In this document: in pieces, positions 1 through 21,718 of the stretch
Layout: every line of letters begins with the position of its first letter
Position numbering within the stretch: position 1 is the stretch's first letter
Virus record (IMG/VR): IMGVR_UViG_3300032323_002532
Location: 1-26,383 of that record
Origin: a virus
Direction: 5' to 3' (one strand)
DNA: 26,383 nucleotides
The notes under the pieces: model-generated
Seen by the model: only the letters and a program-made list of their open reading frames with translations
Databases searched by the model: none
What the model was told of the DNA's origin: nothing
Translations under genes and position numbers: made by a program

Positions 1-621
1 CAAGGCATACAAGGATCTCAGGGTACTCAAGGTATTCAGGGACCTCAAGGTATACAGGGCCAACAGGGTATTCAGGGATCTCAAGGAACGCAAGGTATTC
101 AGGGACAACAAGGTGTCCAAGGTTTAACTGGGCAAGGTATACAGGGTATCCAGGGTCATCAAGGTATTCAAGGTATTCAAGGACCTCAAGGTATCCAAGG
201 TAGACAGGGTGTTCAAGGTGTCCAAGGTATTACCGGTCAGGGTGTTCAAGGTCTACAAGGTATTCAAGGAACTCAGGGTCCGCAGGGTACACAAGGTATC
301 CAAGGCCAGCAAGGTGTCCAAGGTCTTACAGGTCAAGGTGTCCAGGGCTTACAAGGTATCCAGGGGCAACAAGGAACCCAAGGTACACAGGGCATTCAAG
401 GTCCTCAAGGTATTCAGGGTATACAAGGTCAACAGGGACTGCAAGGAACTCAGGGCTTACAAGGTACACAAGGTACACAAGGTATACAAGGGCATCAAGG
501 TATCCAAGGTATTCAAGGTCCGCAGGGGACACAAGGTATCCAAGGGCAACAGGGTATTCAAGGTCCGCAGGGTCTTCAAGGGACTCAAGGTATCCAAGGT
601 AGACAGTGTATCCAAGGTACC
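1..621 (+). repeat. Collagen-like Gly-X-Gln repeat tract 1 (continues left)
   Basis: The tract is made of CAA/CAG-GGN-NNN codon triplets encoding Gly-X-Gln, with X mostly Ile, Val, Leu, Pro, Thr or Gln. It has three G(L/I)TGQ interruptions, near 121, 229 and 325, and a Gly-to-Cys replacement at 607-609. It is part of the fibre gene, not a non-coding repeat. Confidence 0.9.
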
Positions 622-4200: not shown

Positions 4201-4586
4201 TGCCAATACTACTAAGTACTGCTATTTCTCCTAATGTGGGTATTATTAAATCTTACGTAAGAATAACAAGCAATTACACGGCTTTAAATGGTGATAGACT
4301 TATTGCTGATACAACAGCTGGTTCATTTACCGTAACTATGCCAGCATCTCCTTCTACGGGTCATTCTGTGCAGATTACTGACGGTGGAAGTTGGAGAACA
4401 AATAATTTACTAGTTAACTTCAATGGAGCGACAATTGAAGGCATAAATGACACGCTATCTGTTAACATACCTCAAACAACTATAGAGCTTGTTTATGATG
4501 GTACTACATGGCAATTAATTTCAACAACCGGTGCTAGAGGTTCTAGCGATGAAGCTGCAGCTTTTGCTATAGCATTAGGATTCTAA
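4200..4586 (+). CDS. Small tail-fibre-type protein sharing a domain with the collagen fibre
   Basis: A 128-residue protein whose ATG overlaps the stop of the collagen fibre gene (TAATG), which implies translational coupling. Residues about 20-105 match the globular domain at 3193-3480 of the fibre gene, with shared landmarks SNYTA, GDR, FT(I/V)T(L/M)PA, STIEG/ATIEG and YDGTTW. This is therefore one copy of a small beta domain used both alone and inside a long fibre. The C-terminus is a short Ala-rich helix-like tail (DEAAAFAIALGF). There is no signal peptide or membrane segment. Position and domain suggest a virion structural part or fibre-associated protein. The exact role is unknown. Confidence 0.8.
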   Translation: MPILLSTAISPNVGIIKSYVRITSNYTALNGDRLIADTTAGSFTVTMPASPSTGHSVQITDGGSWRTNNLLVNFNGATIEGINDTLSVNIPQTTIELVYDGTTWQLISTTGARGSSDEAAAFAIALGF

Positions 4587-4596
4587 AGGAAAAATT

Positions 4597-7518
4597 ATGG
4601 GTAAAAAGATTATAAGAGATTACGTTTTTGCTCCTGGCGGCGCTGGGGCAGGTACAATAAAAATACCTGGAAAATACACTTTAGATCAACTTCTACTGAT
4701 TACCAATGTCACCGATAATATTATCCTGTACACTTTTGGTAATGTTACATATTCCAATACAACTGCAACTTTTACTGCCGCGAACGACGCAACTAACTTT
4801 CCTACTATCACACAGGCCGAAGATGGTTATACTACAATAACATTGGGTGTAAGCACAACAGGGCAAAGTTCTAGTGATTCACTTCAAATTTTTGTTCATG
4901 CAGATGAAAGCAAAGGATCAGTAATAAGACCTTGGAATTTTGGAACTGACGCAATCGAAAGAATGCGTGTATCGAACCCAGAGTCGTTGATTGACGCTGA
5001 CTTTGAATATGGACTTCAGCCTACAAAATGGGCAGGTTATGGAACTGTTCGAGGATATCCAAGCGCATATGAAATTCCTGGTGTTGACTTTACTGTCACA
5101 GCAATCACGACAGACTTTCAGACAACGAGTACAACAAACAGTTTAATTACAGTGACAACATCTGTTGCTCACGGGCTAGCGGCCGGGGCCGCAGTTAATA
5201 TTTCTGCTCTCAGTTCCGCAATCACTGGATTCTCGAGAGCTGACGGCACATTTATTATTAACACAGTGGGTGTACCTAACAGCAGCACACTAACATATTT
5301 TGCACGGGGTGTCGTAGGAACTTCAAGCGGACAAAGTTTACTTACCGATGCAACTCTTATGAAGCGTGGAGCTCTTTACAGTGGATCATCAATACCCGTA
5401 GCATCAGCGGCAAGTAACGGCGGCAATCCGTCGGTGATTACATTAACATTTACCAACCCGCATGGGTTGATTCCCGGTACTCCTATACACGCTATCGTAG
5501 CATCTGGTACGAACGCGGCACTAGCAAGTGGACCATTTGTAATTACAAGCGTACCGAGTTTAACGACATTAACGTATACTGCTCGAGGTGGTGGAATTGT
5601 TGCGAATCCAGCAACGGTTACTCTGTATGCATTCAGTAATGCTACGATTGTGCACCGCCCACAAGACGGCGGTGTTATTCTTTCTACAAAAACACCATCA
5701 TACGGTGCAACTGTTGCTCGACAAAGTAAAAGATATTTCCGTTATCAATCTGGTAAAGGTTTCCTTTGGTCGACTGGTACACTATTTAGACCAAACTACG
5801 ACATTCAAAGTATCACGGCATCTGGTACTACAATTGGTTCAACAATCACTGTAACTACCGATGATATTGATCACGGTTTGCAAGTAGGGGCAACCATTGA
5901 ATTGGCTGGAGTAACAACTTCTGGCTACAATGGTCAATATACAGTTGCATCAATCACGAGTGACTATCAATTCACTGTGACAGCAACGAGTGTCCTTGGA
6001 GCAACTACGGCTGTACTAGGTATTACTCCAAAACTATATGTAATAGGCTGGCACGGAGCTGAAGTCCGAGCAGGTCTATTTGATGAACAGAATGGTCTTT
6101 TCTGGGAGTATGACGGATCAATACTTTCTGTTGTAAGAAGAAATGCTACTGCACAAATAAGTGGAACGCTTAGCGTCACACAAAACTCAAACGCAGTTAC
6201 TGGAACAAATACAAGATTTACACAACAGTTGAAAGCTGGAGATAGAATTGTTATACGAGGTATGACTCACCACGTCATACAAGTAGCAAGTAATACATCA
6301 TTATTCGTTTCACCTGAGTATAGGGGTGTAACCGCGGCCGGTGTAAAGGGTAATATAGTTCAAGAATTAAGAGTTAGACAAAGTCAGTTTAATATAGATA
6401 CCATAGATGGAAATGGGCCAAGTGGATTTAATATCAATCCAAGTAAGATGCAAATGGTTGGTATGCAATATACATGGTATGGTGCTGGATTTGTTGATTT
6501 CATGGTCCGTGGTAGTGATGGAAATTGGGTATATGTGCATCGCATGAAAAATAACAACGTGAATGATGAAGCATACATGAGATCTGGTAACTTACCAGTT
6601 CGTTACTCAATTGAAAACGATAGTCCAGTAACTTCACTGACTAGCACAATTGATAGCTCTGTTACATCAATTCCTATTGCTGCGTTGGATTATTTTCCAA
6701 GCGCCGGTACAGTTTATATAGATAACGAACTAATCAGTTATACTGGAAAGTCCGCTTCAACTGGAGCTGGAAACCTTACTGGTGCTACACGTGCTGCGAC
6801 GTTGACTCAATGGCAAGTAGGCACTTCTTCTAGCTTTACGGCTGCAGCAGCGGCAAGCCACACATCAGGCACAGGCATAATGTTGGTCAGTAACACATGT
6901 TCACCAACACTAAGTCATTGGGGTTCTGCTCTTATCATGGACGGCGGATTTACGAGAGATCGCGGTTACATCTTTAATTATCAGAGAGTCGGTCTATCTC
7001 TTACAACGGCGAACCAGACAGCATTCCTTATTCGCCTTGCACCGTCTGTTTCAAACAGTCAGATTGGTGCGCTTGGTGTAAGAGATCTATTGAATCGTTC
7101 TCAGCTTCTTCTAAATGCAGTTGGTGTTTCCGTTTCAGGTGGTACTACTCCAGGAGCTTGTATTGTTGAAGGTGTGTTGAATCCAAAGAACTTCTCTACA
7201 GCAACGTGGCTACCACTTAATACAGAAGCAGCTGGTGGACAACCTAGTCTTGCACAGGTTGCAACGGTAGTCACTTGGTCTTCTGGAACAGTCGGTATAC
7301 CCGGAGAACAAGTATTTGCGTTCGCAGCACCTTCTACAACAACCGGCGCGGTAAACGATAGACTTGATCTTTCAGAATTGAAAGAATTAACCGGTGCTCC
7401 ACTTGGTGGCGATTTCCAGTATCCAGACGGTTCGGATATCTTAGCGATTAACATTCGTTTGACTGCAGGAACTGGTTCTGGTCACGTTCTTCTTCGTTGG
7501 TCCGAAGCACAAGCATAA
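4597..7518 (+). CDS. Large virion structural protein, T4-like marine myovirus type
   Basis: The 973-residue protein starts at ATG 4597 behind an AAAGGA ribosome site six bases upstream. The N-terminus (MGKKIIRDYVFAPGGAG) and the block at residues 111-162 (RPWNFGTDAIERMRVSNPES, then DADFEYGLQPTKW and YPSAYEIPG) are, to my recollection, characteristic of a large structural protein conserved in T4-like cyanophages. Three related beta repeats follow at about residues 183, 280 and 415. Each has a hydrophobic strand, an HGL...G turn and a later strand ending near TYTARG or TVTATS. The C-terminal third (VYIDNELISYTG, SHWGSALIMDGGF) is also typical of the family. A virion location is likely. The precise place, baseplate or fibre, is not shown by the sequence. 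Confidence 0.8.
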   Translation: MGKKIIRDYVFAPGGAGAGTIKIPGKYTLDQLLLITNVTDNIILYTFGNVTYSNTTATFTAANDATNFPTITQAEDGYTTITLGVSTTGQSSSDSLQIFVHADESKGSVIRPWNFGTDAIERMRVSNPESLIDADFEYGLQPTKWAGYGTVRGYPSAYEIPGVDFTVTAITTDFQTTSTTNSLITVTTSVAHGLAAGAAVNISALSSAITGFSRADGTFIINTVGVPNSSTLTYFARGVVGTSSGQSLLTDATLMKRGALYSGSSIPVASAASNGGNPSVITLTFTNPHGLIPGTPIHAIVASGTNAALASGPFVITSVPSLTTLTYTARGGGIVANPATVTLYAFSNATIVHRPQDGGVILSTKTPSYGATVARQSKRYFRYQSGKGFLWSTGTLFRPNYDIQSITASGTTIGSTITVTTDDIDHGLQVGATIELAGVTTSGYNGQYTVASITSDYQFTVTATSVLGATTAVLGITPKLYVIGWHGAEVRAGLFDEQNGLFWEYDGSILSVVRRNATAQISGTLSVTQNSNAVTGTNTRFTQQLKAGDRIVIRGMTHHVIQVASNTSLFVSPEYRGVTAAGVKGNIVQELRVRQSQFNIDTIDGNGPSGFNINPSKMQMVGMQYTWYGAGFVDFMVRGSDGNWVYVHRMKNNNVNDEAYMRSGNLPVRYSIENDSPVTSLTSTIDSSVTSIPIAALDYFPSAGTVYIDNELISYTGKSASTGAGNLTGATRAATLTQWQVGTSSSFTAAAAASHTSGTGIMLVSNTCSPTLSHWGSALIMDGGFTRDRGYIFNYQRVGLSLTTANQTAFLIRLAPSVSNSQIGALGVRDLLNRSQLLLNAVGVSVSGGTTPGACIVEGVLNPKNFSTATWLPLNTEAAGGQPSLAQVATVVTWSSGTVGIPGEQVFAFAAPSTTTGAVNDRLDLSELKELTGAPLGGDFQYPDGSDILAINIRLTAGTGSGHVLLRWSEAQA

Positions 7519-7529
7519 AGGATTTAAAT

Positions 7530-8390
7530 ATGGTAGTCTTAGCAACAGATTTACTTTCAGCTTATTTACCACCAGGTCCACCTGGGCCGAAGGCAGATCC
7601 TGTAACTTTCTCAAGTTTCACAGCATCTGGTACTTGGACAAAGCCCGCGGGCGCAAAACTAGTATTAGTTCGTGTCTGGGGTGCTGGAAGTGGAGGACAG
7701 TCAGGCATGGTCGATGCTATATCTACAACAAAATTTGCTTCAGGTGGTGGTGGAGGCGGCGCCTTTTATGAAAAATACTTCAGCGCGGATTTGTTAGGTT
7801 CTACTGTTTCCGTAACTGTTGGGGCAGGTGGTCCCGGTGGAGTAGGAAACCTGACCGTTGGTACTTCAGGGGGTCAGTCCAGTTTTGGAACTCTCATTAT
7901 CTGTGGCGGAGGAATACCTAGTAATGGCGGCGGTGCTCAAGGTGCTACAACTGGAACTGGTTCTGTTACTGTTCCAAGTTTGCTAGGTGGTGCCGGAACG
8001 AGCGGTTATTATGGCGGCGGCGGTGTAGGCTTTAGTTCAGCTTTTGGTGGTGGTGGAGGTGGTGCTGGCGGCGCAGAAACGAACCTCAATGCACTTACAC
8101 CGACTCCTACTGCTGGAGGTATCACTAATGCAACATCTTCAACAGCGACGGGTGGTGGAGGAACAGCCGGAACAAATAACGCGTCTGCACCAACCGCGGG
8201 AGGAAATGGAACCGCATTTGGAATGGGCGGCGGAGGGGGTGGATCGTCACAGACTGCGGCTAAAGCTGGAAACGGCGGTAATGGCGGAATTGCAGCAGGC
8301 GGCGGCGGGGGTGGATCAAACCGCACAGGTCTCTTATCTGGTGATGGTGGCGCAGGTGGTAACGGATATGTGGAGGTCTTTACATGGTAA
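7530..8390 (+). CDS. Poly-glycine-rich tail fibre/adhesin protein
   Basis: ATG 7530 is chosen over an in-frame TTG at 7497. It follows an AAAGGA site with normal spacing, whereas TTG 7497 would overlap the previous gene. The 286-residue protein begins with a short hydrophobic stretch and a proline-collagen turn (PPGPPGPK, residues 14-21). A Gly_rich-type domain follows (FTASGTWTKPAGAKLVLVRVWGAG, in two parts: residues 30-41 and 42-53). At least four runs of six glycines and a C-terminal YVEVFTW strand come after. The family occurs at the tips of phage fibres. In some T4 relatives, poly-glycine helices form the gp38-type receptor-binding adhesin, and a similar role here is an inference. The gene overlaps the next one by seven bases. 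Confidence 0.75.
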   Translation: MVVLATDLLSAYLPPGPPGPKADPVTFSSFTASGTWTKPAGAKLVLVRVWGAGSGGQSGMVDAISTTKFASGGGGGGAFYEKYFSADLLGSTVSVTVGAGGPGGVGNLTVGTSGGQSSFGTLIICGGGIPSNGGGAQGATTGTGSVTVPSLLGGAGTSGYYGGGGVGFSSAFGGGGGGAGGAETNLNALTPTPTAGGITNATSSTATGGGGTAGTNNASAPTAGGNGTAFGMGGGGGGSSQTAAKAGNGGNGGIAAGGGGGGSNRTGLLSGDGGAGGNGYVEVFTW

Positions 8391-8686
8391 ATAGATATGC
8401 AATCATAGAGAACGGTGTAGTCATTAATGCGGCGGTAGCAGAAGCCCCTCTTGCTGATAATTGGATTATCACTACCACAGCCGGTCCTGGTTGGCTTTAT
8501 CAAGGTGGAGAGTTCCTCCCTCCTCCTCCAATTGTTCCATCAAAAGAAGAACAGGAGGTCAAACGCAAGGCCGCATACCAAGAGGAAGCAGATCCAATCT
8601 TCTTTATGTCTCAGCGAGGTGAAGCTACTGTCGAAGAATGGCAAGCAAAAGTCGCCGAGATCAAATTAAGATATCCGTATCCTTAA
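8384..8686 (+). CDS. Small hypothetical protein, possible fibre-associated or assembly factor
   Basis: The 100-residue protein starts at ATG 8384 inside the end of the poly-glycine gene, so the two are probably made together. The N-terminus (YAIIENGVVINAAVAE, with GWLY later) resembles the short N-terminal domain of phage tail-fibre assembly and small tail proteins. A proline run (PPPP) leads into a charged helix, and the end (DPIFFMSQRGEA, EEWQAKVAEIKLRYPYP) follows a pattern I recall from small T4-like marine phage proteins. No catalytic motif, signal peptide or membrane segment is visible. A role as partner or chaperone of the adjacent adhesin is inferred from position only. Confidence 0.65.
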   Translation: MVNRYAIIENGVVINAAVAEAPLADNWIITTTAGPGWLYQGGEFLPPPPIVPSKEEQEVKRKAAYQEEADPIFFMSQRGEATVEEWQAKVAEIKLRYPYP

Positions 8687-8714
8687 GAGACTTAAGCATT
8701 AGATTAACTCTAAT
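8682..8714 (+). terminator. Weak inverted repeats after the fibre block
   Basis: Two short inverted repeats follow the last fibre gene: CTTAAG-AGA-CTTAAG at 8682-8696 and ATTAGA-TTAAC-TCTAAT at 8698-8714. Both are AT-rich with six-base stems, and no strong U-run follows. They could slow or end transcription ahead of the late promoter, but the evidence is thin. Confidence 0.25.
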
Positions 8715-8720
8715 AAATCA

Positions 8721-8728
8721 TATAAATA
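8721..8728 (+). promoter_or_regulatory. T4-type late promoter for the glycan island
   Basis: TATAAATA, an exact match to the T4 late core read by the gp55 sigma factor with the gp45 clamp, sits in the only gap between the fibre block and the sugar genes, 38 bases before ATG 8766. Late promoters need no -35 box. No further intergenic TATAAATA occurs before 17183, so this site could drive all eight island genes. Confidence 0.75.
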
Positions 8729-8765
8729 TTACTGAATGAACTTGATATTATGAAAGGTTTGAATA

Positions 8766-9809
8766 ATGGGCGAAGTGAAAAAAGGATTTTCTGAAGTAGA
8801 ATCCAAATATAAGTTTGGCAATGATAATTCATTTATGAAATTTATATTAGAACAAGGAGGTGACATAAAGCCTCTTATAATTCCTTCCGAATTTACAAAT
8901 GGTACTGGAATTATGAATCCATCAATCTATAAGTTAGATGATGGGACATTATTAGTTAATATTAGACACGTTAACTATACATTTTATCACTCAGAGAAAA
9001 AACTATTACAACATCAATGGGGTCCACTGACATATCTGCACCCTGAAAATGATATGCACTTAAGAACAAATAATTTCTTCTGTGTATTAAATGAAGATCT
9101 TAGTATTAGATCTGTTGTCAAAATTGATACTTCTAAATTTGATACATACGAGCCAATGTGGGATTTTGTTGGGCTTGAAGATGTCAGATTGGTAATATGG
9201 GATGATAAACTTTATGCCACAGGTGTTCGCAGAGATACAACTACAAATGGTCAAGGTAGAATGGAACTATCTGAATTAGATATAATTGATGATAAAGTAG
9301 TAGAAATTTCCAGAAAACGAATACCACCACCAAATGATCCTAATTCATATTGTGAAAAAAATTGGATGCCAGTAATAGATCAAGAATATACATATGTCAA
9401 ATGGTGTAATCCTACTGAAGTCGTGCAAGTTGATCCTGAATCAGTTACATCTAAAACCATACATCTTGGAAATCAATATCAAGCACCAAATGACTTTAGA
9501 GGTGGTACTCAAGTAATTCCTTTTGTTGATGGATATAGATTTGCATTAATCCATGAAGTAGATCTTTTCAGAAGTGAACACGGGCGAAAAGATGCAGTAT
9601 ACAGACATAGATTTATTGTCTGGGATGAAAATTGGAATGTAGTAAAATTCACTAAAGATTTTTCTCTCATGAATGGTCATGTTGAATTTGCTGTTGGTAT
9701 GTGTAAAATGAATGATGATATCCTAATTACATTCGGTTTCCAGGATAATGCTGCATACATAATCAAAGCAAAATTTGATCACATTGTAGAGTTTATTAAC
9801 TCAAACTAA
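8766..9809 (+). CDS. GH130/GH43-like five-bladed beta-propeller protein, glycan-active
   Basis: The 347-residue protein starts at ATG 8766, behind AAAGG at 8753-8757 and the late promoter. Landmarks of the five-bladed propeller enzymes are visible: NPSIYKLDDGTLLVNIRHVNY (in two parts, residues 51-60 and 61-71), GLEDVRLV with LYATG (136-153), EKNWMP (197-202), RGGTQVIPF (245-253), YRHRFIVWD (279-287), and HVEFAVGM with ITFGFQDNAAYI (305-332). GH130 members cleave or phosphorolyse mannosides, and related propellers of unknown activity accompany glycosyltransferases in viral gene clusters. Catalytic residues cannot be assigned by eye, so the substrate is unknown. It is the first gene of the island, three bases ahead of a glycosyltransferase. 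It could trim a glycan or be a non-catalytic sugar-binding propeller. Confidence 0.55.
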   Translation: MGEVKKGFSEVESKYKFGNDNSFMKFILEQGGDIKPLIIPSEFTNGTGIMNPSIYKLDDGTLLVNIRHVNYTFYHSEKKLLQHQWGPLTYLHPENDMHLRTNNFFCVLNEDLSIRSVVKIDTSKFDTYEPMWDFVGLEDVRLVIWDDKLYATGVRRDTTTNGQGRMELSELDIIDDKVVEISRKRIPPPNDPNSYCEKNWMPVIDQEYTYVKWCNPTEVVQVDPESVTSKTIHLGNQYQAPNDFRGGTQVIPFVDGYRFALIHEVDLFRSEHGRKDAVYRHRFIVWDENWNVVKFTKDFSLMNGHVEFAVGMCKMNDDILITFGFQDNAAYIIKAKFDHIVEFINSN

Positions 9810-9811
9810 TA

Positions 9812-10783
9812 ATGACTAAAATACTATTTCATGAAAATCAATTAGGTGAAAGAGGCACTACTGTAGCTATGTATGATTATGCATACTATCTACGGTTAAT
9901 TTATGGTGCTGATCCTATCATTGCATATAATACATCAAATAAAAATGATGAAGATACCGTAGCAAAATTCAAAAAAGAATTTAATGTACTTTCATATGAA
10001 AATTTTAATGAATTAGATAAGTTTATTGAGAAAAATGCAATACCGTATTTTTATGCAATAAAATATGGCTATAATGATGGTATTATTTCTAAATCATCAA
10101 AAAATTTAATACATTCAGTTTTTTCAAAAAGCTTAGATGATGTTCATGGTGATAGATATGCGGTTGTCTCTGAATGGCAGTCTCTATATTCAAGTAAACA
10201 AATACCTTCAGTTCCTCATATGTTAAATTTAGTAGATACGGATGAAGATTTAAGAGCAGAATATTCAATACCTTCTGACGCAATAGTGATAGGAAGACAT
10301 GGTGGATATGATACTTTTAATATTGATTTTACAGTTGAAAGTATCTATACAGTTTTAAATACACGATCTAATGTATGGTTTCTTTTTGTAAACACCGAAC
10401 GAAAGATTTTACATGAAAGATGTATATACATAGAAAAGATAATAGATCTAAAACAAAAAACTAAATTCATCAACTCGTGCGATGCTATGATACATGCAAG
10501 AGATTACGGAGAAACATTTGGTCTATCTGTTTTGGAATTTGCAGCAAAAAATAAAGCTATAATAACATATGATAATGAAGATTATCAGACCAATCATCCG
10601 CTGGGTGGAAGAAATCATTTTCTATTTTTACAAGATCAGTGTTATAAATATACCAACAAAGAACAATTAGATGATATTTTCTTACACATAGAAAAAGAAA
10701 ATAAATTTAATACTCTGTTTCTTGCTGATAAATTTTCACCTGCGAATGTCACAAAAATTTTTAAAGAAATTTTTCTGAATTGA
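9812..10783 (+). CDS. GT4-type (GT-B fold) glycosyltransferase
   Basis: The 323-residue protein starts at ATG 9812, two bases after the previous stop. No ribosome site is obvious, so it is probably translated by coupling. The C-terminal half carries the GT4 nucleotide-sugar motif DYGETFGLSVLEFAAKNKAI (residues 231-250) with an E-x7-E pair at Glu234 and Glu242. A linker strand (IVIGRHGGYDTFNI, 158-171) sits where the GT-B phosphate-binding loop starts. The N-terminus (ERGTTVAMYDYAYY, 13-26) would form the acceptor domain. These enzymes transfer a sugar from a nucleotide donor with retention of configuration. Donor and acceptor cannot be told from sequence. It is cytoplasmic, with no signal or membrane segment. 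Confidence 0.8.
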   Translation: MTKILFHENQLGERGTTVAMYDYAYYLRLIYGADPIIAYNTSNKNDEDTVAKFKKEFNVLSYENFNELDKFIEKNAIPYFYAIKYGYNDGIISKSSKNLIHSVFSKSLDDVHGDRYAVVSEWQSLYSSKQIPSVPHMLNLVDTDEDLRAEYSIPSDAIVIGRHGGYDTFNIDFTVESIYTVLNTRSNVWFLFVNTERKILHERCIYIEKIIDLKQKTKFINSCDAMIHARDYGETFGLSVLEFAAKNKAIITYDNEDYQTNHPLGGRNHFLFLQDQCYKYTNKEQLDDIFLHIEKENKFNTLFLADKFSPANVTKIFKEIFLN

Positions 10784-10805
10784 GTATATTTATGGAGACT
10801 ATATA

Positions 10806-12239
10806 ATGATAATAGATTGCTTTCCTTATTTTAATGAAAAAGAATTATTAGAATTAAGAATAAAACTTTTACAAGATAAGGTTGATAAATTTATCATAAC
10901 AGAGGCTGATAGAACACACAGCGGTCAACCAAAACATATGACATTCCTTGAAACACTAAGAGGAATGAAAGACATTCCGCTGGAAAAAATCTTTTATCTT
11001 CAAGTAGCACTACCCTCAAGAGAAGAAGAGCCCAATGATTGGGTACGAGAAAGAATGCAGAGAGATGCTGCAGGGAAACACATAAAAGAAGATGATTATG
11101 CGCTAGTAAGTGATCTAGACGAAATAATGAATCCAGATTTTATTGAATATTATGTGAGTATAGCAAAAAATCACAAGAACAATGTATTACGTTTACCTCT
11201 TGTATTCCTTTGCAGTAGAGCAGATATGCGCGTGTATAATGAACAGGGAAATCCTGTAAGCTGGTCCACACCTTTTATTGCTAGTAAGCATCATCTTAAT
11301 AAGTATAGTCTTTCAGATATTCGTGAATCACATTCACTGTCAAAGAATAACCTAGAATATGGTGATATTTTTGTAACCGAAAATGGTGTTATGAAAGAAG
11401 CAGGTTGGCATTTTACTTGGATGGGAAATGAAACAAGAAGACAAACTAAAAAGAATGCATTTGCCCATTGGCATGAAGTTCAACTTGTGCCCAACTATAA
11501 AGCACAAAATGGTTCAGTAGATCCATTAGGAAGAACAGATCATATACTAAAAAAATATGATACAAGTGAATTGCCAAAGCTAGTATATGATTTGAAAAAT
11601 GTAAAAAACTTCCTATTACCAGATACTGATGGGAGAAGTATTTTAGAAACTCTAAATGAAAATCCATTCTTAAGTACAGATAAAAATTCTGTATTTTATA
11701 AAAGATATCCAGCAGAATGGCCATTTTTACAACATCACAGTTATATAGAAAATTTTTATGAAGACTATTTTAAAGAATATTGTGATAAACAAAACAAGAT
11801 ATTAGAAATAGGTATTGATACTGGTGGTTCAATTGCTCTTTGGCATGAATATTTTAAAAATTCTACAGTTGTTGCTCTAGACATTCGAAAAGAAAGATTA
11901 AAACCTGAATATGATGAAGATAAATTTGAAAGAGCAGTTTATGCATATGTCAAAGATGCATATGATCCTATCTTTATAGATTCACTAGGAATGTTTGACA
12001 TTATCATAGATGATGGACCTCATACATACGAGACTCAGCGTGTAACGGTAGAGCAATATTTGAAAAAATTAAATAAAGGTGGTATATTAGTGATAGAAGA
12101 TATCTCTACAATTGAATATGCAAATGATCTGTATAATAGAGTTCCTAATAGCGATGAATATACAAAGTTTCTAATTGATCTAAGAGAAAAAGATAATAGA
12201 TATGATAGTATCATTTTAGCGGTTAAAAGATCTGCATAA
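10806..12239 (+). CDS. GT17-family glycosyltransferase fused to a class I methyltransferase
   Basis: The 477-residue protein starts at ATG 10806, with GGAG at 10794-10797. Residues 1-240 match Glyco_transf_17, the family of the eukaryotic bisecting N-acetylglucosaminyltransferase MGAT3: DCFPYFNEKELLELRI (4-19), VDKFIITEADRTHSGQPK (26-43), NDWVRERMQRD (77-87), SDLDEI (102-107, holding the DxD metal site) and AGWHFTWMG (199-207). Residues about 315-477 are a Rossmann SAM methyltransferase of the macrocin/CmcI type: ILEIGIDTGGSIALW (332-346), a VVALDI strand, FDIIIDDGPH (397-406) and GGILVIEDI (425-433). One chain could add a sugar and methylate the product, or a neighbouring sugar. Specificity is unknown. 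Its end overlaps the next start (TAATG). Confidence 0.85.
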   Translation: MIIDCFPYFNEKELLELRIKLLQDKVDKFIITEADRTHSGQPKHMTFLETLRGMKDIPLEKIFYLQVALPSREEEPNDWVRERMQRDAAGKHIKEDDYALVSDLDEIMNPDFIEYYVSIAKNHKNNVLRLPLVFLCSRADMRVYNEQGNPVSWSTPFIASKHHLNKYSLSDIRESHSLSKNNLEYGDIFVTENGVMKEAGWHFTWMGNETRRQTKKNAFAHWHEVQLVPNYKAQNGSVDPLGRTDHILKKYDTSELPKLVYDLKNVKNFLLPDTDGRSILETLNENPFLSTDKNSVFYKRYPAEWPFLQHHSYIENFYEDYFKEYCDKQNKILEIGIDTGGSIALWHEYFKNSTVVALDIRKERLKPEYDEDKFERAVYAYVKDAYDPIFIDSLGMFDIIIDDGPHTYETQRVTVEQYLKKLNKGGILVIEDISTIEYANDLYNRVPNSDEYTKFLIDLREKDNRYDSIILAVKRSA

Positions 12240-12982
12240 TGCACTATAGTGAAGTTGACTTTTACTCTTTTTGCTTTGTAAATCAACCTGCAAAAATGAG
12301 AATGCCAAAGCAGACGGATCTGATGTTAGGTGCGGCAGTTCATCGAATGTATAATGCAAATTATGAACACGATGATACGGGTAATAATATATCAGATTTA
12401 AATTATTGGCTTGGTCAGACTACAGGTATCTATTGGGTTTGGAAAAATTCAAATAAAGATTATGTCGGAACTTGTACTTATAGAATTTTCTGGAACGAAG
12501 AAGAACTTAATTCTATAAATATTGATGAAAATACGTTAATAGTTCCAAAAGCAATAAATGTAAACACAGCTGCACCTCCATTAACTAACGATAGATATAA
12601 TCTTGTGACTCAATATATTACATGTCACGGTGATCTCGCTATTTCTATGTTATATGCTACTGTCAATTTAGAAAATACAAAAATAAAACAACATATGCTA
12701 GATGATTTAAAGAACAGTGAATTTTTCCATCCGTATAGTATGTATATAACAAGTAAAAAAGTAAATGATGTTATCTGCAGTGTATTATTTGATACTTTAT
12801 TAAAAATATACTTTAAATATCAACACATTTTTTATTTGGCCGATAAAGATAAAAATGGAACTTACAAAAGACTGTTAGATTACTTAGCAGAAAGAATACT
12901 ACATTTAATATATACTAATATTAACTACTATATAGCGGGTGTTAAAATACACGAGGTTAGTATTATAGATTTACCACATTGA
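12239..12982 (+). CDS. DUF4422 family protein, probable glycosyltransferase
   Basis: The 247-residue protein starts at ATG 12239, overlapping the preceding stop. The family core is clear: DDTGNNISDLNYW (residues 45-57), TGIYWVWKN (62-70), DYVGTCTYRIFW (74-85) and later QYITCHGDLAI. DUF4422 proteins occur in capsule and O-antigen clusters and are regarded as GT-A-like glycosyltransferases. The usual HYRR stretch at the end of the core reads TYRI here, so a residue common in the family is replaced. That may change activity or mark a divergent lineage. The C-terminal helix (KRLLDYLAERILHLIYTN) is typical. It would act in the cytoplasm on the same glycan as its neighbours. Confidence 0.75.
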   Translation: MHYSEVDFYSFCFVNQPAKMRMPKQTDLMLGAAVHRMYNANYEHDDTGNNISDLNYWLGQTTGIYWVWKNSNKDYVGTCTYRIFWNEEELNSINIDENTLIVPKAINVNTAAPPLTNDRYNLVTQYITCHGDLAISMLYATVNLENTKIKQHMLDDLKNSEFFHPYSMYITSKKVNDVICSVLFDTLLKIYFKYQHIFYLADKDKNGTYKRLLDYLAERILHLIYTNINYYIAGVKIHEVSIIDLPH

Positions 12983-12993
12983 GAGGTTATAGA

Positions 12994-14253
12994 ATGCAAG
13001 ATCTTATTAAACAATTTGTCATATCGCCAAATGATCCAGAAACTAACTTTACATTAGCAAGACATTACCATGAAATAGGCCAAACTGCATCTGCTGTTTC
13101 ATACTATATTAGAACAGCAGAAAGAACAGAGGATCTATTTTTAAGATACGAGTCTCTTCTTCATGCTGCAAATTGCTTTGAACGACAGGGTACTAGAAGG
13201 TTTACAGTAAAAGGTATCCTTCAACAGGCAATAACAATAATGCCGAAGCGACCTGAAGCATATTACCTTTTGAGTAAATTGTACGAATACAACGAAAGTA
13301 ATGAAGGTCGCCACTTAGATTCATATATGATGTGTTCGATAGCTTTGGATGTATGTAATTTTGAAGATACAAAGAATTTAAGATATCCAGTAGAATACCC
13401 TGGCAAATATGCTATCATGTTCCAGAAAGCAATTATGGGCTGGTGGAATGGTCTGAATGAAGAAACTAAAAATATATTGCTGGATCTCTACACAAATTAT
13501 GAAATGTCAGAAAATTTCTACACGACTGTCAAAAATAATCTGATTAATATAGGTGCTTTTGCTTCAAAGCAATTGACGCATTATACTAAAGACAAATTTG
13601 ACAAGATGAAAGTAAAATTCAACAATCTAGATAAGATTGAACAAAATTACTCAGAGTCATATCAAGATATGTTTGTTCTTTCAATTATGGATGGAAAAAG
13701 AGATGGATCATACTTAGAAATTGGTTCGGGGCATCCAACATATGGTAACAATACATACCTATTGGAAAAGCAATTTGGATGGAATGGTATATCAATTGAT
13801 TTAAGTGAAGAATTTATTGGACTTCACAAAAATGAGAGAAGTCACCATGCCCTATTGAAAGATGCAACTCTTATTAATTATGATGCACTTTTAAGTACAA
13901 TGGATATGCCACCAGTAATAGATTATCTTCAGGTAGACGTAGATCCTGCTGATGTTTCATTGAATGTTCTATATTCTATACCATTCGAAAAGTATAAATT
14001 TAGAGTTATCACATTCGAGCATGATTACTATACCGATCCAAAAAGTACCGTAAGAGAAAAGGCAAGAAAATTTTTAACTAGCCATGGATATATACTAGTA
14101 GTACCAAATATATCTCCGGATGATAATAGACCATATGAAGACTGGTTTGTAAATCCCAATGAGACTGATATGAACATGGTTTCGAGATTTATTTCAAACA
14201 ATCAAGAAACTAAAAACGCTGAAAAATTTATGATGGGAGTATATGATGAATAA
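12994..14253 (+). CDS. TPR-like protein fused to an FkbM-like methyltransferase
   Basis: ATG 12994 is chosen over TTG 12979 because GAGAGG at 12981-12986 is well placed for it. The 419-residue protein has an N-terminal helical-repeat region, about residues 1-200, with TPR-style alternation (NFTLARHYHEIGQTASAVSY, PEAYYLLSKLYEY). It ends in an FkbM/Methyltransf_21-like SAM domain from about 222: GSYLEIGSGHPTYGNNTYLLE in two parts (238-247 and 248-258), NGISIDL (264-270) and a DYLQVDVD strand. FkbM-type enzymes usually methylate sugar or macrolide hydroxyls. The TPR-like half may bind a protein or hold the complex together, and similar helical regions accompany protein-glycosylation enzymes. The target is unknown. 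It overlaps the next gene by eight bases. Confidence 0.78.
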   Translation: MQDLIKQFVISPNDPETNFTLARHYHEIGQTASAVSYYIRTAERTEDLFLRYESLLHAANCFERQGTRRFTVKGILQQAITIMPKRPEAYYLLSKLYEYNESNEGRHLDSYMMCSIALDVCNFEDTKNLRYPVEYPGKYAIMFQKAIMGWWNGLNEETKNILLDLYTNYEMSENFYTTVKNNLINIGAFASKQLTHYTKDKFDKMKVKFNNLDKIEQNYSESYQDMFVLSIMDGKRDGSYLEIGSGHPTYGNNTYLLEKQFGWNGISIDLSEEFIGLHKNERSHHALLKDATLINYDALLSTMDMPPVIDYLQVDVDPADVSLNVLYSIPFEKYKFRVITFEHDYYTDPKSTVREKARKFLTSHGYILVVPNISPDDNRPYEDWFVNPNETDMNMVSRFISNNQETKNAEKFMMGVYDE

Positions 14254-15031
14254 GATACCTGTTGTAGGAGCTGCTGTTGTAAATAGCAGTTTCTGGGTAT
14301 CAAGACTTTTGATGAGTGTTGATTACCCAGTTGAGAATTTTATCATAATAAACAACAATGGTCGAGGTTTATTGGAAGAAGAACTAAATAATCTGGTTAA
14401 GATAAAACACCGATATATAGAAAATATAAAGGTTGTGCATATGCCAGCTAATATTGGATGTGCAGGTGCATGGAACTTGATTATAAAGTGCTACATGAAT
14501 GCTAAATACTGGGTGATTGTAAATGATGATGTTGCATTCAAACCAGGTTTATTAGAAGAAATAAACAACATTATAGAAACAAATGATGAAGTAGGTACCG
14601 TTCATCCAAATGCTGGTGATTTTAATATTGGTGCATGGGATCTTTTTGCTATACACGAAAGAGCAGTTAAGCAATTAGGTCTATTTGATGAAAATACATA
14701 CCCCGCATATTGTGAAGATGCAGATTACATCATGCGTATGACTAATAAAGGTGTGAAGAAAGTTGTAGGTCTTCAAAATGGTTATCTTCACGGAACAGGA
14801 GATGCAAAAGACTATTATGTTCATGGAAGACAGACTGAAAAATCAGATGATAATCTTCGACATATTTTACAGACCGCAAATGAAATGAATATAGATTATC
14901 TCACTAGAAAATGGGGACCAGGCTGGAGAAATGTCTGCCCTCAAGAAACTCCATTTGCAGGAGAAGAGAGAGATATTAGTTATTCACTTTATGACCTAGA
15001 ATTTGTTCGCAAAAAATATACAGGATTTTAA
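14246..15031 (+). CDS. GT2-type (GT-A fold) glycosyltransferase
   Basis: Two adjacent ATGs are possible, 14243 and 14246. The second is six bases from GGAG at 14236-14239 and is preferred. The 261-residue protein has a GT-A pattern: an N-terminal strand (VVGAAVVNS), then FIIINNNGRG (residues 32-41), HMPANIGCAGAWN (65-77), and WVIVNDDVAFKPG (89-101) with NDD as the metal-binding DxD equivalent. CEDADYIMRM (156-165) holds the likely acidic catalytic region. The last third (RQTEKSDDNLRH, YLTRKWGPGWRN) is typical of rhamnosyl- and galactosyl-type GT2 enzymes, though no sugar can be assigned. It is soluble, with no membrane segment. Confidence 0.8.
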   Translation: MNKIPVVGAAVVNSSFWVSRLLMSVDYPVENFIIINNNGRGLLEEELNNLVKIKHRYIENIKVVHMPANIGCAGAWNLIIKCYMNAKYWVIVNDDVAFKPGLLEEINNIIETNDEVGTVHPNAGDFNIGAWDLFAIHERAVKQLGLFDENTYPAYCEDADYIMRMTNKGVKKVVGLQNGYLHGTGDAKDYYVHGRQTEKSDDNLRHILQTANEMNIDYLTRKWGPGWRNVCPQETPFAGEERDISYSLYDLEFVRKKYTGF

Positions 15032-15032
15032 T

Positions 15033-15782
15033 ATGACATTACCAATCTCAGCAGGAATTCTTTCTTGGAAAGCACCTAATACACTCGAAAAAACACTGGA
15101 AACTTATGTCAAAAATGATCTATTTGATTTAATCAAAGATGTTGTCATTTTATTCCAGGAAGTTACAGATGATGATAAAAGACTAGCAAATAAATTTAAT
15201 TTGCCATTTATTGGTCTTGATAGTAATATTGGCATAGGTAATGGTATGCTTATGTTAGCTGAGCAAGCACGCAATGAAAAATTCATATTTTTAGAACATG
15301 ATTGGCAGTTAGTAGAAAATTATTTTAATACCAAACGAAGGCTTGTCGGTGCTCTAGAATTAATTGATGATGGTTATGATGCAGTTAGATTACGCTCCAG
15401 AAGAAATTTTGGTTATCCTTTATATTCTGAAATATATAAAGGAAATGAATTGAATCATTATGATCCAGTTACAGATTTAATATCCCCGCATCTATTTGAT
15501 TGTATACATTGGATTGATGAACCAGATAAAGTATTCCCAGATAAGATCCAGAAATATAAATATCATTATGTTACAACTTCAAGATGGTCAAGTTGGACAA
15601 ACAATCCTTGCTTATTTGAAACTAAATTTTTAATTAATTCCATAAAAAATTATGTTTCACACGAAGAAAAACATCTCGAGCCTTCAATATCAAAATGGTG
15701 GACAAGTCAAAACTATAAAGTCGCCTGGGGTGAAGGTCTTTTCAAACACGTAGATCATGATAAATGGGGTCCTAGAGAATGA
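15033..15782 (+). CDS. GT-A-fold glycosyltransferase (GT2-like)
   Basis: ATG 15033 is used rather than TTG 15003. It follows AGGA at 15022-15025 by seven bases and starts right after the previous stop. The 249-residue protein shows a GT2-like N-terminus: SAGILSWKAPNTLEKTLETY (residues 6-25), DVVILFQEV (36-44), LDSNIGIGNGM (62-72) and FIFLEHDWQL (84-93), where EHDW sits at the usual DxD place. After that comes RLRSRRNFGYPLY and a Trp-rich tail (SRWSSWTNN, SKWWTSQNYK). The GT-A pattern is clear, but sequence alone does not give donor or acceptor. Its stop overlaps the next start (ATGA), so it is translationally coupled to the fusion gene. Confidence 0.72.
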   Translation: MTLPISAGILSWKAPNTLEKTLETYVKNDLFDLIKDVVILFQEVTDDDKRLANKFNLPFIGLDSNIGIGNGMLMLAEQARNEKFIFLEHDWQLVENYFNTKRRLVGALELIDDGYDAVRLRSRRNFGYPLYSEIYKGNELNHYDPVTDLISPHLFDCIHWIDEPDKVFPDKIQKYKYHYVTTSRWSSWTNNPCLFETKFLINSIKNYVSHEEKHLEPSISKWWTSQNYKVAWGEGLFKHVDHDKWGPRE

Positions 15783-17119
15783 GAAATAAAATTGTATTGG
15801 TAACTGGAGGATTTGATCCTATCCATAGTGGGCATATTGCATATTTTAAAGAAGCAAAAAGATTAGGTGATACATTAGTCGTAGGTGTCAATAGCAATGA
15901 ATGGTTAACTCGTAAAAAAGGACAACCATTTATGGACATAAACGAAAGAGTGGAAATTATAAAAAATCTTTCAATGGTCGATTCAGTAATTGTCTATGAT
16001 GACTCTGATGGAAGTTCAAGCGCAGCAATACGTCATTGTCTTGATGCTTATAAGGATTCAAAAATCATTTTTGCTAATGGTGGTGATCGCACAAAAACAA
16101 ATATTCCAGAAATGAATATGTCTTGCACAAATGAAGAATCAAATAGACTTGAATTTATATTTGGTGTTGGTGGCGAGCATAAGATGAATTCATCATCAAA
16201 AATACTAACCGAATGGAAGACACCAAAGACAGAACGAAAGTGGGGTTATTATAGAGTTTTACATTCTGATGGTCCATCACTTAAGGTGAAAGAATTAGTT
16301 GTAGAACCTGGTAAATCTCTCAGTCTACAAAAACATAATTTAAGAAGTGAATATTGGATTGTATCACACGGTGTTGCCACTGTAAACCATGGAACTGATC
16401 TTGATACCTTAAATTGTTCTGTATTAGAAAAGAATGATGAGATATACATTCTAAAAAATGAATGGCATCAACTAATGAATAAAACAGATGATGAATTGAG
16501 AATTGTTGAAATACAATATGGGATAAATTGCATAGAAGAGGATATAATCAGAATGGAAGCATCCAATGATCTGATAGATAAGGAATATGAATATGCTGTT
16601 AATGTTTACTCAGATATACATGAACACGTGCCTGTACTATATGAATTAGCAAAAGAGTGCAATACCGTTACTGAAATGGGCGTATTCCGTGGAAATAGCA
16701 CGAGAGCATTTCTAAAATCAAACGCTAAGATAACTTCTTATGATATTGCGCTATTACCAGAGGCCGTAAATTTGGTACAAAAGGCAAAAAATATTGGAAA
16801 GAATATAAATCTATTTCAGGCTGACGTATTAAAAATAGAAATAGAAGAAACTGATCTATTGTTTATAGATACTAAACATACATATAATCAATTGAAAGAT
16901 GAACTTAAACTTCATGGAAATAAAGCAAGAAAATATATAGTACTACATGATACTATTGCATATGGTCTTGTGAATGAGCCAGATAATAGCAGAGTTGCCG
17001 ATGATCATGGTCTTTTGCCAGCTTTGATGCAATTTCTTATAGAAAATAAAAACTGGAGAATTAAAAAGTTCTTAACTAACAACCATGGACTAACAGTATT
17101 AGAAAGAATTTATTTTTAA
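15779..17119 (+). CDS. Three-domain fusion: nucleotidyltransferase, PMI-type cupin, SAM methyltransferase
   Basis: The 446-residue protein starts at ATG 15779 in an ATGA overlap. Residues 1-145 are a cytidylyltransferase-like nucleotidyltransferase: VTGGFDPIHSGHIAYF (8-23) has the HxGH motif, followed by RKKGQPFMDINERVEII (45-61) and NSSSKIL (137-143) in place of the ISS-x motif. Residues 153-265 are a type II mannose-6-phosphate isomerase cupin: KWGYYRVL, then PGKSLSLQKHNLRSEYWIV (177-195), EWH (228-230) and VEIQYGI; Gln184, His186, Glu191 and His230 fit the metal site. Residues about 275-446 are a class I SAM methyltransferase (VTEMGVFRGNST, 297-308; LLFIDTKHTYNQL, 360-372). The protein could activate, isomerise and methylate a sugar. 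It may equally be a regulatory cupin between two enzymes. It is the last island gene. Confidence 0.85.
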   Translation: MRNKIVLVTGGFDPIHSGHIAYFKEAKRLGDTLVVGVNSNEWLTRKKGQPFMDINERVEIIKNLSMVDSVIVYDDSDGSSSAAIRHCLDAYKDSKIIFANGGDRTKTNIPEMNMSCTNEESNRLEFIFGVGGEHKMNSSSKILTEWKTPKTERKWGYYRVLHSDGPSLKVKELVVEPGKSLSLQKHNLRSEYWIVSHGVATVNHGTDLDTLNCSVLEKNDEIYILKNEWHQLMNKTDDELRIVEIQYGINCIEEDIIRMEASNDLIDKEYEYAVNVYSDIHEHVPVLYELAKECNTVTEMGVFRGNSTRAFLKSNAKITSYDIALLPEAVNLVQKAKNIGKNINLFQADVLKIEIEETDLLFIDTKHTYNQLKDELKLHGNKARKYIVLHDTIAYGLVNEPDNSRVADDHGLLPALMQFLIENKNWRIKKFLTNNHGLTVLERIYF

Positions 17120-17182: not shown

Positions 17183-17190
17183 TATAAATA
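17183..17190 (+). promoter_or_regulatory. T4-type late promoter for the neck and tail block
   Basis: TATAAATA lies 32 bases before the gp13 ATG, in the 102-base gap 17120-17221. The sequence and placement match the late promoter at 8721. Nothing else was recognised in this gap apart from the AAGG ribosome site at 17211-17214. Confidence 0.75.
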
Positions 17191-17221: not shown

Positions 17222-17974
17222 ATGGCATTACCAAGAACTAGAAAAGAATTTAAAGAATACTGCTTAAGAAAATTAGGGCACCCTGTTATTCAGATTAACG
17301 TTTCTGATGAACAAATTGATGACCGTGTAGATGAGGCATTGACATTTTGGAATGATTATCACTATAACGGTTCTGATCTTGTGTATTTGAGACATATGTT
17401 AACGCAAGAGGAAATAGATCAAGGTTATGTAGATTTAAACAACACTGAGTATGCTAATTTACTTGGTGTTGTTCGCATTTTTGACTTGTATTCATCTATT
17501 TCAACTGGTACTGGTATGTTTAACGTGCAATACCAATTTGTTCTAAATAACTTGCAAGATCTTACTGGTTATTCTATTCAGAACTACTATATGACTATGC
17601 AGCACATTCGTTTTATTCAAGAATGGCTTGTCGGTTTACCTTTAATTAGATATAATAAACATACTAATAAACTTTATATTGATCAGAGTAAAGCAAAATT
17701 AACTCCAAACTATTATGTCATTATTGAAGCATATGCACCTGTAGATGATACAAATCCAGATATTTGGGGCGACCGTTTTCTTCAAAATTATACAACAGCA
17801 CTTATTAAAGAACAGTGGGGTTCAAATCTTACCAAGTTCGTGAATATGCAACTTGTTGGTGGCGTTCAATTTAATGGTGAACAAATACTTTCCGATGCCC
17901 GAGAAGAGCGCAAAGGTATGGAAGACGAAGCAAAAAGATTATTACAACCGCTTACTTACAATTTCTCTGGATAA
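17222..17974 (+). CDS. gp13: Neck protein gp13 (T4-like)
   Basis: A 250-residue protein with AAGG at 17211-17214 before ATG 17222. The N-terminus (RTRKEFKEYCLRKLGHPVIQ, then INVSDEQIDDRVDEAL and YHYNGSD) matches T4 gp13 homologues, in which a helix opens the protein and LG-P-I is conserved. T4 gp13 is about 309 residues, and marine relatives are shorter, as here. In T4, gp13 and gp14 form the neck that seals the filled head and receives the tail. The gp14 homologue follows three bases downstream, which supports the call. The C-terminal helix is charged (DAREERKGMEDEAKRLLQ). It is probably transcribed from the late promoter at 17183. Confidence 0.88.
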   Translation: MALPRTRKEFKEYCLRKLGHPVIQINVSDEQIDDRVDEALTFWNDYHYNGSDLVYLRHMLTQEEIDQGYVDLNNTEYANLLGVVRIFDLYSSISTGTGMFNVQYQFVLNNLQDLTGYSIQNYYMTMQHIRFIQEWLVGLPLIRYNKHTNKLYIDQSKAKLTPNYYVIIEAYAPVDDTNPDIWGDRFLQNYTTALIKEQWGSNLTKFVNMQLVGGVQFNGEQILSDAREERKGMEDEAKRLLQPLTYNFSG

Positions 17975-17977
17975 TCA

Positions 17978-18718
17978 ATGGCAACTAATGTCTTCTTTTC
18001 AAATTACAATTTCTTTAATGAGCAGCAACTCATTGATGATTTAGTTATAGAGTCAATCCAAATATATGGAGTCGACACATTTTACGTGACTAGAACTTCT
18101 AGTGCTTTTGATCACATCATGAATGAAGATAGATTAACAGTATTTGATGCTGTATATCAGATGGATATGTATGTCAAGTCTGTGGATGGTTTTAGTGGTC
18201 AAGGTGACTTCCTTTCAAAATTCGGATTGGAAATTCGAGATCAAGCAACATTTACTGTTGCGTATAGAACTTTTGAACGTTTTGCAACACGTCATGATCC
18301 TTCTTTACTACGTCCAAAAGAAGGCGATTTGATTTATATGCCAATGAATAAGAAATTCTTTAAGGTCATGTTTGTAGAACATGAATCAGTATTCTATCAG
18401 ACCGGTGCTCTTCAAGTGTATGATCTAAAATGTGAATTATTTGAATATTCAAATGAGAGATTTGAAACAGGTGTTGATGATATTGATACACATTATGCAG
18501 ATCACAAAACTGATGATATTGAAAATCTTGAAGATATGTTTATTGCAGATCCAATAGCTAAAAATATATTCTATGAAGAAAAAGGTAATGATATTATAGA
18601 CTTCAGCGAGTTGGATCCATTCAGTGAAACTATATTCCCACCATCAAATTATGGAACTACTGCAGATTCAATTAAAGTAACTGCCGACGATGGCAATATT
18701 ACTTCAGACACGATATAA
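17978..18718 (+). CDS. gp14: Neck protein gp14 (T4-like)
   Basis: The 246-residue protein is close to the 256 of T4 gp14. The start (MATNVFFSNYNFFNEQQLID) is followed by DLVIESIQIYG and FYVTRTS. The GFSGQGDFLSKFGLEIRDQ stretch (about residues 71-89) corresponds to the conserved G-GQGD-FSKFG region of the family, and the later LRPKEGDLIYMP matches as well. In T4, gp14 joins gp13 at the head-tail interface. The Asp/Glu-rich tail (DFSELDPFSE) continues into a short spacer before the next structural gene. The adjacent order gp13-gp14 is conserved across T4-like phages. Here gp15 does not follow directly. Confidence 0.9.
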   Translation: MATNVFFSNYNFFNEQQLIDDLVIESIQIYGVDTFYVTRTSSAFDHIMNEDRLTVFDAVYQMDMYVKSVDGFSGQGDFLSKFGLEIRDQATFTVAYRTFERFATRHDPSLLRPKEGDLIYMPMNKKFFKVMFVEHESVFYQTGALQVYDLKCELFEYSNERFETGVDDIDTHYADHKTDDIENLEDMFIADPIAKNIFYEEKGNDIIDFSELDPFSETIFPPSNYGTTADSIKVTADDGNITSDTI

Positions 18719-18727
18719 GAGGAACAA

Positions 18728-19639
18728 ATGGCTAAGCAAACCATAAATGTAGGAACGATTGCTAATGATCGCACAGGTGACCCATTAAGAATTGCTTTTA
18801 CTAAAACAAACGCTAACTTTACTGAAGTATATGATAATATAGAAACTACTAATATAACAGTAGCTAATAATTTTATTACAGTCAATGATAGAATTGATAA
18901 TCTTGATATATCCGATCTTGTAGATTCTCAAGGAATAATTTCAGGTATTCCTACCGATGTATCTGATCTTACAGATACTAACAATCTTCTTGAAGCTGCT
19001 AATACTGGCGATATTGGGTTTTTAAATAATTTTATTTTCAATAGTTCAAGTTTTAATCAATCTATTTGGATAACTCCAGGTAGTGATAATGCTCAAAGTA
19101 CGAGTTGGATTCACATTCCAGGTAATTCTGAATCCGACGACGAACCTTTGACTATTAGTAATAGTTCTGAAACCGGCGGGGTTCAAATTATTTCAAATGA
19201 TAATGAAGTACATTTTGATCCAAATGGAAGAATTAGACAAAACTCCAGCCTTAGACATGCTAAACGTGGTATGTTTGATAAATCAACACCAACGGTAATA
19301 TGGTCAAGTAGTTTTGATTACATTAGTAGTGCTAAACTTTTAATACAAATTGAAGCACATGAATTTATGGATTCTACAGGGATACATAGTCAAGCATGTG
19401 AAGCAATAATTGCAAGTAGAGGAAGTGCAGATAATATTAATAATGAATTTGGATATGGTGATCCAGCAATGACTGTTTATGGTATTGTGCATACCAGTGC
19501 AGCACCACTGGTAACATTTACAATTCGACGAAATTCAACAACAAGATTAATAGAAGTAGTAGCAACTGCTGCTGTAACAGTAGAAAATCCAGATATTTAC
19601 TATAGTGTAAGTTCCGTAGAAATGATGACATGGAATTAA
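18728..19639 (+). CDS. Virion structural protein with conserved N-terminal attachment-type domain
   Basis: The 303-residue protein starts behind AGAGGA at 18718-18723. Residues 1-38 (MAKQTINVGTIANDRTGDPL, then RIAFTKTNANFTEVYDNI) are a recurring N-terminal module of structural proteins in T4-like marine phages. A short heptad-like stretch follows (NITVANNFITVNDRIDNL), which may help trimerise. Residues about 100-303 are beta-rich, with an Asn/Ser-rich middle (FNSSSFNQSIWITPGSDN, then EVHFDPNGRIRQNSSLRHAK), and close with YYSVSSVEMMTWN. No enzyme motif was seen. It is inferred to be a fibre, collar or baseplate decoration protein. It is the first of three non-core genes between gp14 and gp15. 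Confidence 0.72.
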   Translation: MAKQTINVGTIANDRTGDPLRIAFTKTNANFTEVYDNIETTNITVANNFITVNDRIDNLDISDLVDSQGIISGIPTDVSDLTDTNNLLEAANTGDIGFLNNFIFNSSSFNQSIWITPGSDNAQSTSWIHIPGNSESDDEPLTISNSSETGGVQIISNDNEVHFDPNGRIRQNSSLRHAKRGMFDKSTPTVIWSSSFDYISSAKLLIQIEAHEFMDSTGIHSQACEAIIASRGSADNINNEFGYGDPAMTVYGIVHTSAAPLVTFTIRRNSTTRLIEVVATAAVTVENPDIYYSVSSVEMMTWN

Positions 19640-19650
19640 TGGAGTAATAA

Positions 19651-21702: not shown

Positions 21703-21718
21703 TTAGGGGCAAAAACAA

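Follow-up and report, generated by a model that had tools for sequence, protein, structure and literature searches.

Which molecule is modified by the products of a gene island, rich in glycosyltransferase and methyltransferase domains, that lies among the virion genes of a T4-like phage? The window, the whole of a 26,383-base IMG/VR contig with T4-like flanks, carries this island as eight co-directional genes (g1 to g8) on the + strand at 8766-17119; the original prediction placed it in a virion gene block, and it does lie between fibre genes on the left and the T4-like neck genes gp13 and gp14 on the right. On balance, the island is considered to be a late cassette for glycan assembly in the cytoplasm, with a virion protein as its target, most likely a fibre encoded just upstream; we infer this target as well as the enzymatic activities and the sequence in which they act. 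Very few phages are established cases of virion glycosylation, and no description of the cassette built around g1 and g5 was found in the open-access literature.

Layout and enzyme content of the island

The features of the window are as follows.

1..8686, + strand: upstream fibre block, containing the next five features
1-4200, + strand: collagen-like Gly-X-Gln fibre with S74 chaperone, 5' end cut
4200-4586, + strand: ORF
4597-7518, + strand: virion structural protein
7497-8390, + strand: Gly-rich tail protein
8384-8686, + strand: ORF, last of the fibre block
8721..8728, + strand: TATAAATA, T4-type late promoter core, 45 bases before g1
8766..9809, + strand: g1, core gene, GH130/GT108-fold five-bladed propeller (predicted structure)
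9812..10783, + strand: g2, accessory, GT4-like (GT-B) glycosyltransferase (Glycos_transf_1 at 20 bits, below the cut-off of 26.4)
10806..12239, + strand: g3, accessory, GT17 glycosyltransferase fused to a SAM methyltransferase (Pfam)
12239..12982, + strand: g4, accessory, DUF4422, GT111-type and galactofuranosyltransferase-like (Pfam, 82 bits)
12979..14253, + strand: g5, core gene, TPR domain (profile match) and FkbM-like methyltransferase
14243..15031, + strand: g6, common partner of the core, GT2-family glycosyltransferase (Pfam GT2, 31.2 bits)
15003..15782, + strand: g7, accessory, probable GT-A glycosyltransferase (low-confidence model)
15779..17119, + strand: g8, HldE/TagD-type nucleotidyltransferase, mannose-6-P isomerase-type cupin and C-terminal methyltransferase
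17183..17190, + strand: TATAAATA, late core at -39 from gp13
17222..18718, + strand: gp13 and gp14, T4-like neck genes, downstream border of the island

The eight genes are adjacent and mostly coupled from stop to start, as predicted: five of the seven junctions overlap by 1-29 bases, and the remaining two are gaps of 2 and 22 bases. Translation of g5 may start at TTG 12979 or ATG 12994, and g7 has an alternative ATG at 15033. To the right of the island stand gp13, gp14, gp15 and the small terminase; three fibre-like ORFs (303, 683 and 1155 aa; 18728-25186) separate gp14 from gp15, where most relatives have gp15 adjoining gp14 or a single ORF in between. Recent horizontal acquisition of the island was rejected for lack of a compositional sign of transfer, GC3 being equal in the island (0.15-0.25) and in gp13-gp15 (0.21-0.25). 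Annotated phages gave no megablast match to the island. Hydropathy stays below TM-like values in every island protein, the highest 19-residue mean being 1.38.

The enzyme content expected for a methylated oligosaccharide is borne out by the domain families, with unequal firmness from gene to gene. Among the predicted glycosyltransferases (GT4, GT17, two GT-A and DUF4422), the GT17 domain of g3 (51.7 bits, cut-off 26), the DUF4422 of g4 and the GT2 of g6 score above their cut-offs; the GT4 call for g2 is sub-threshold, and the second GT-A enzyme, g7, comes from a low-confidence model (pLDDT 60.5) in which GT-A enzymes match the N-terminal half. DUF4422 has been linked to GT111 (PMC12269835). 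The three SAM methyltransferase domains of the prediction are similarly graded: that of g3 is above the cut-off (Methyltransf_24 31.0, cut-off 26.3), that of g8 is sub-threshold (Methyltransf_24 24.6), and that at the C-terminus of g5 is recognised as FkbM only through relatives. The predicted nucleotidyltransferase and PMI-type cupin are both present in g8 (CTP_transf_like 56.9 bits, MannoseP_isomer 79.8 bits); together they form its first ~260 aa, are core in the T4-like clade, and are carried by relatives as a stand-alone protein of ~258 aa. In L201-L214 the methyltransferase domain of g8 forms a fusion with a g5-like protein, and the nearest relatives of g3 keep the GT17 part (56% identical) and have no methyltransferase.

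For g1 the predicted GH130-like propeller is supported by the structural model and by no sequence library. With the AF2 model (pLDDT 83.6, pTM 0.86), GH130 mannoside phosphorylases and GT108 mannosyltransferases top both structure searches of the PDB, identifying a GH130-type five-bladed propeller; the model aligns with RaMP1 at a VIA-align Z of 24.2 (rmsd 2.9, 274 aligned) and with MPT-2 at 18.2. There is no family match for g1 in Pfam, PHROGs or NCBIfam, the GH130 family model PF04041 does not match it at E<=10, and its profile has no match among PDB sequences at E<=1 and a weak one to a bacterial GH130 profile. Across 26 homologues residues N51-P52, R67, E138-D139, E307, G311 and D327 are invariant and R141 is nearly so, and the motifs NP..R, ED.R and E..G..FG.QD are invariant or nearly so; aligned by eye, these correspond to GH130 FNP, EDPR and EG..YG.AD, with E138-D139 at the position of the ED(P)R catalytic-Asp motif. 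From its modelled fold, g1 is probably a mannosyl- (or other glycosyl-) transferase or a phosphorylase.

A conserved core with exchangeable accessories

The island was predicted to be an eight-gene unit; comparison with relatives indicates that the eight genes are not one unit and that a conserved core is combined with exchangeable accessories, which is the new finding here. Locus counts refer to assembled fragments, with the best 80 loci kept per scan; g1 and g8 loci were selected by those genes, phylogenetic non-independence was handled by clustering alone, and a gene missing from a contig counts as weak evidence of its absence. The gene g5 is present in 80 of 83 g1 loci and directly follows g1 in 71 of 82, and the same 83 loci contain g6 (47), g8 (17), g3 (17), g2 (6) and g7 (4). 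Both g1 and g5 occur in all 45 dereplicated representatives with enough flanking DNA. When gp13 is taken as the anchor and dereplicated loci with 7 kb or more upstream are considered, 10 of 11 have the combination of g1, g5 and g8 before gp13, and the eleventh contig carries g1 elsewhere; in shorter contigs such as L101 and L158 this slot lacks the cassette. A phage-specific core, consisting of the g1-g5 pair plus g8 and often g6, is thus conserved in order in uncultured T4-like phages and is close to fixed in the T4-like clade, the other genes being exchanged; g2, g3, g4 and g7 are interchangeable accessories, found in few relatives. The eight genes are therefore not inherited together as a whole, although g1 and g5 travel together; the original prediction had itself named independent presence of the genes in relatives as refuting it, and this part of it fails.

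The core proteins are 31-50% identical in marine members, and the pN/pS of the island genes (0.12-0.34) is similar to that of the neck genes (0.07-0.21), consistent with similar purifying selection. An ordered, phage-specific enzyme core that lacks family names, occupies a fixed slot beside fibre genes and has at least 600 viral stretches matching g1 is of general interest; the g1-g5 pair is also found in two cultured cyanophages, which makes the question of its target testable now, and the Synechococcus phages DSL-LC02 and S-SCSM2R are the cassette-bearing isolates.

The g1 family is almost restricted to phages. In cellular genomes it is found at nine loci among 84,980 species, and a bacterial origin of g1 was rejected on this small number and on the presence of gp13-gp16 at four of the nine (L168 and L170-L172), because of which these four look like misbinned phage DNA; the only clearly chromosomal locus is L174 (25% identity). 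Contigs L168-L172 are phage contigs with gp13-gp16 and/or the cassette inside bacterial MAG bins (Rhodobacteraceae, Pirellulales and Bacteroidetes), a placement that is probably misbinning or else a hint at hosts.

Use of g8 as a marker of the cassette was rejected, since relatives of g8 occur in other phages without g1, for example beside GT8; relatives of its nucleotidyltransferase-cupin part (57-63%) lie without g1 or g5 near GT8 and replication-type genes in L215-L246. A scan with the single g5 sequence returned one locus and was too strict for prevalence. A further group of cassettes also encodes a radical SAM/SPASM protein, either as a separate gene placed between g5 and g6 or joined to the end of g5 (L007, at 8168-9085; L008-L011, L021, L027, L029, L032, L078 and L082). 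The parts of the cassette are also linked by fusions, among them those of g1 to a TPR domain in L027 and to DUF6445 in L041.

Late promoter motif and timing of expression

One late promoter was predicted to serve all eight genes. The motif TATAAATA is found exactly where it was described, before g1 (8721) and before gp13 (17183), and none of the intergenic stretches between these two sites has a copy; at both sites it lies a short distance before the first gene, as in a T4-type late operon. The window contains six copies, all on the + strand, against 3.8 expected; this number was rejected as significant, as 21 of 100 shuffles reach six. In 43 dereplicated gp13-bearing relatives the density of the motif is 0.237/kb on the coding strand and 0.012/kb on the opposite strand, a bias of about 20-fold; it precedes gp13 in 17 of 42 dereplicated relatives, mostly about 31-39 bases ahead, and g1 in 6 of 20, and is never found before g5, gp14, gp15 or gp16 in dereplicated gp13-bearing relatives. 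This strand bias and the position before gp13 make late transcription credible, and from the motif late expression of the island is predicted to be likely. A gp55-type late sigma factor (40-45% identity) is encoded by five of nine long relatives, all five on contigs of more than 180 kb.

The conserved position of a late-promoter-like motif thus stands; that it is the single promoter for all eight genes is doubted, because copies lie within genes at 10643, 12514 and 15555 and because five of ten relatives have the motif 83-86 bases before g6. The copy inside g2 stands equally far from the end of that gene in three phages (window 10643; L002 12661; L085 9140), with a different gene following, and is either an internal promoter or a run of conserved codons.

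Candidate targets of the glycan

For the favoured reading, modification of a virion protein in the cytoplasm, the steps may be proposed from the domain families. The nucleotidyltransferase and isomerase-type cupin of g8 would make or activate a sugar phosphate; a short chain would be built by g1, with its mannosyltransferase/phosphorylase fold, and by the GT-A, GT-B and GT111-type enzymes; and the TPR-FkbM protein g5 and the other, fused methyltransferase domains would cap it by O-methylation, the TPR of g5 possibly holding the acceptor protein. The genes g1-g5(-g6)-g8 would be the conserved engine, with g2, g3, g4 and g7 setting a lineage-specific sugar structure. Cytoplasmic modification of a virion protein is favoured because the enzymes are soluble, the genes lie in a late virion block under purifying selection like that of the neck genes, and the 11 long relatives carry neither a flippase nor GtrA. 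If virion fibres are glycosylated, this would bear on how particles bind receptors, evade host defences and grazers, and vary in a serotype-like manner.

Placement and neighbours also support this reading, as divergent phages share the place of the cassette, with fibre genes on one side and gp13 on the other, and collagen-like ORFs are enriched upstream of g1. Among ORFs of at least 200 aa in dereplicated g1 loci, 16 of 52 at positions -2/-1 from g1 are collagen-like, compared to 26 of 594 elsewhere (odds ratio 9.7, uncorrected for phylogeny); the isolate DSL-LC02 has the same arrangement, with a collagen-like gene, g1, FkbM methyltransferases and a fibre in order. A tight pairing of fibre and cassette is opposed by the marine relatives, most of which have no collagen-like gene adjoining the cassette. 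Collagen is common in tail fibres generally. The virion protein at 4597-7518 is 84-87% identical in L052-L056, where gp13 is 66% and g1 56% identical to those of the window and the cassette is very different, suggesting from sequence that lineages have recently exchanged the fibre block; since this protein is conserved beside so different a cassette, fibre and cassette recombine separately.

The main rival, possible at perhaps half the weight of the favoured reading, is that the enzymes act on the surface of the infected cell, changing its LPS or capsule so that superinfection, or readsorption of progeny, is blocked. Domains of the GT2, GT4, GT17, DUF4422 and HldE/PMI types are characteristic of loci for LPS and capsule, such glycosyltransferases are explained equally well as modifiers of host O-antigen, and soluble enzymes could still act on lipid-linked precursors of the host; glycosyltransferase clusters in the host-recognition region of pelagimyophages have been read this way, LPS modification being proposed by the authors (PMC7029224). 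Those phages are likewise T4-like and aquatic with glycosyltransferase genes, including rfaE-type, in the fibre region; their cluster is variable and GT8-dominated, whereas here an ordered, conserved core includes methyltransferases. Against modification of the host surface, the island encodes no flippase, GtrA-type or membrane protein, and its late virion-block position and fixed core are ill-suited to fast-changing receptor biology. A serotype-conversion cassette for LPS or O-antigen would be recognised by a flippase or GtrA-type protein; besides being absent from the island genes, the Wzx flippase (PF01943) was found in 0 of 11 long relatives and GtrA (PF04138) in none of the same 11 above the cut-off.

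A metabolic or small-molecule role, in which g1 as a phosphorylase frees sugar phosphate from host polysaccharide and g8 recycles it, is improbable: true mannoside phosphorylases are among the closest folds to g1, but the linkage to methyltransferases, several glycosyltransferases and fibre genes would be left unexplained, and the placement is late rather than early. Least probable, and already called less likely in the original prediction, is glycosylation of modified DNA bases, for although phage glycosyltransferases acting on DNA exist (T4 a-gt), the island has a late-type placement, the window contains no base-modifying genes, and the T4 beta-glucosyltransferase family is absent from the 11 long relatives in a search run without a positive control.

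Modification of virion proteins has a precedent in the mycobacteriophages Che8 and Rita (Freeman 2023, as cited in PMC11256854 and PMC12619734). According to these citing papers, those phages encode glycosyltransferases and have glycans on capsid and tail-tube proteins; the window likewise encodes glycosyltransferases, but the phages are unrelated, their genes are different, and the cited accounts describe no GH130-fold/TPR-FkbM/NTase-cupin core. Mimivirus, with L230 and R699, is a virus that has collagen-like proteins together with its own hydroxylase and glycosyltransferase (PMC9546862), a set resembling the GT25 and 2OG-like genes that freshwater relatives carry; it is a eukaryotic virus, and the window has no 2OG, GT25 or radical SAM gene. 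The collagen repeats of the window contain almost no lysine. A further likeness, by filament and glycan type and as a lead, is BclA of the Bacillus exosporium, a bacterial spore protein whose collagen-like filament bears a methylated oligosaccharide.

In freshwater relatives the cassette is extended by genes of the GT25 and 2OG-oxygenase-like kinds, which in some cases are fused, and a GT25-type domain is joined to g6. GT25 is the family of collagen galactosyltransferases and also serves LPS synthesis. Of the 45 representatives, 22 have a DUF6445 gene (2OG-oxygenase-like) along with the cassette, comprising 17 of 26 with collagen and 5 of 19 without, a co-occurrence above expectation (p 0.016, uncorrected for phylogeny). 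It is tentatively proposed, as a rather unlikely extension of the virion-protein reading, that the cassette family is the phage counterpart of collagen modification in animals and mimiviruses: DUF6445 would hydroxylate collagen-like tail fibres, GT25-type and other transferases would glycosylate them, O-methylation would be added, and lineages like that of the window would have swapped transferases. If true, this would be a bacterial-virus system making glycosylated collagen-like fibres, and the freshwater relatives would supply bacterial-virus enzymes for modified collagen. The DUF6445 protein has an HxD...H...R-like conservation resembling that of 2OG-Fe(II) oxygenases; it is encoded within the g1-g5(-g6) cassette or after it in L012, L013, L015, L022, L028, L045, L067, L083 and others, and in some relatives is fused to g1, g5, GT17 or GT25 domains, the fusion in L045 being to a GT25-family domain.
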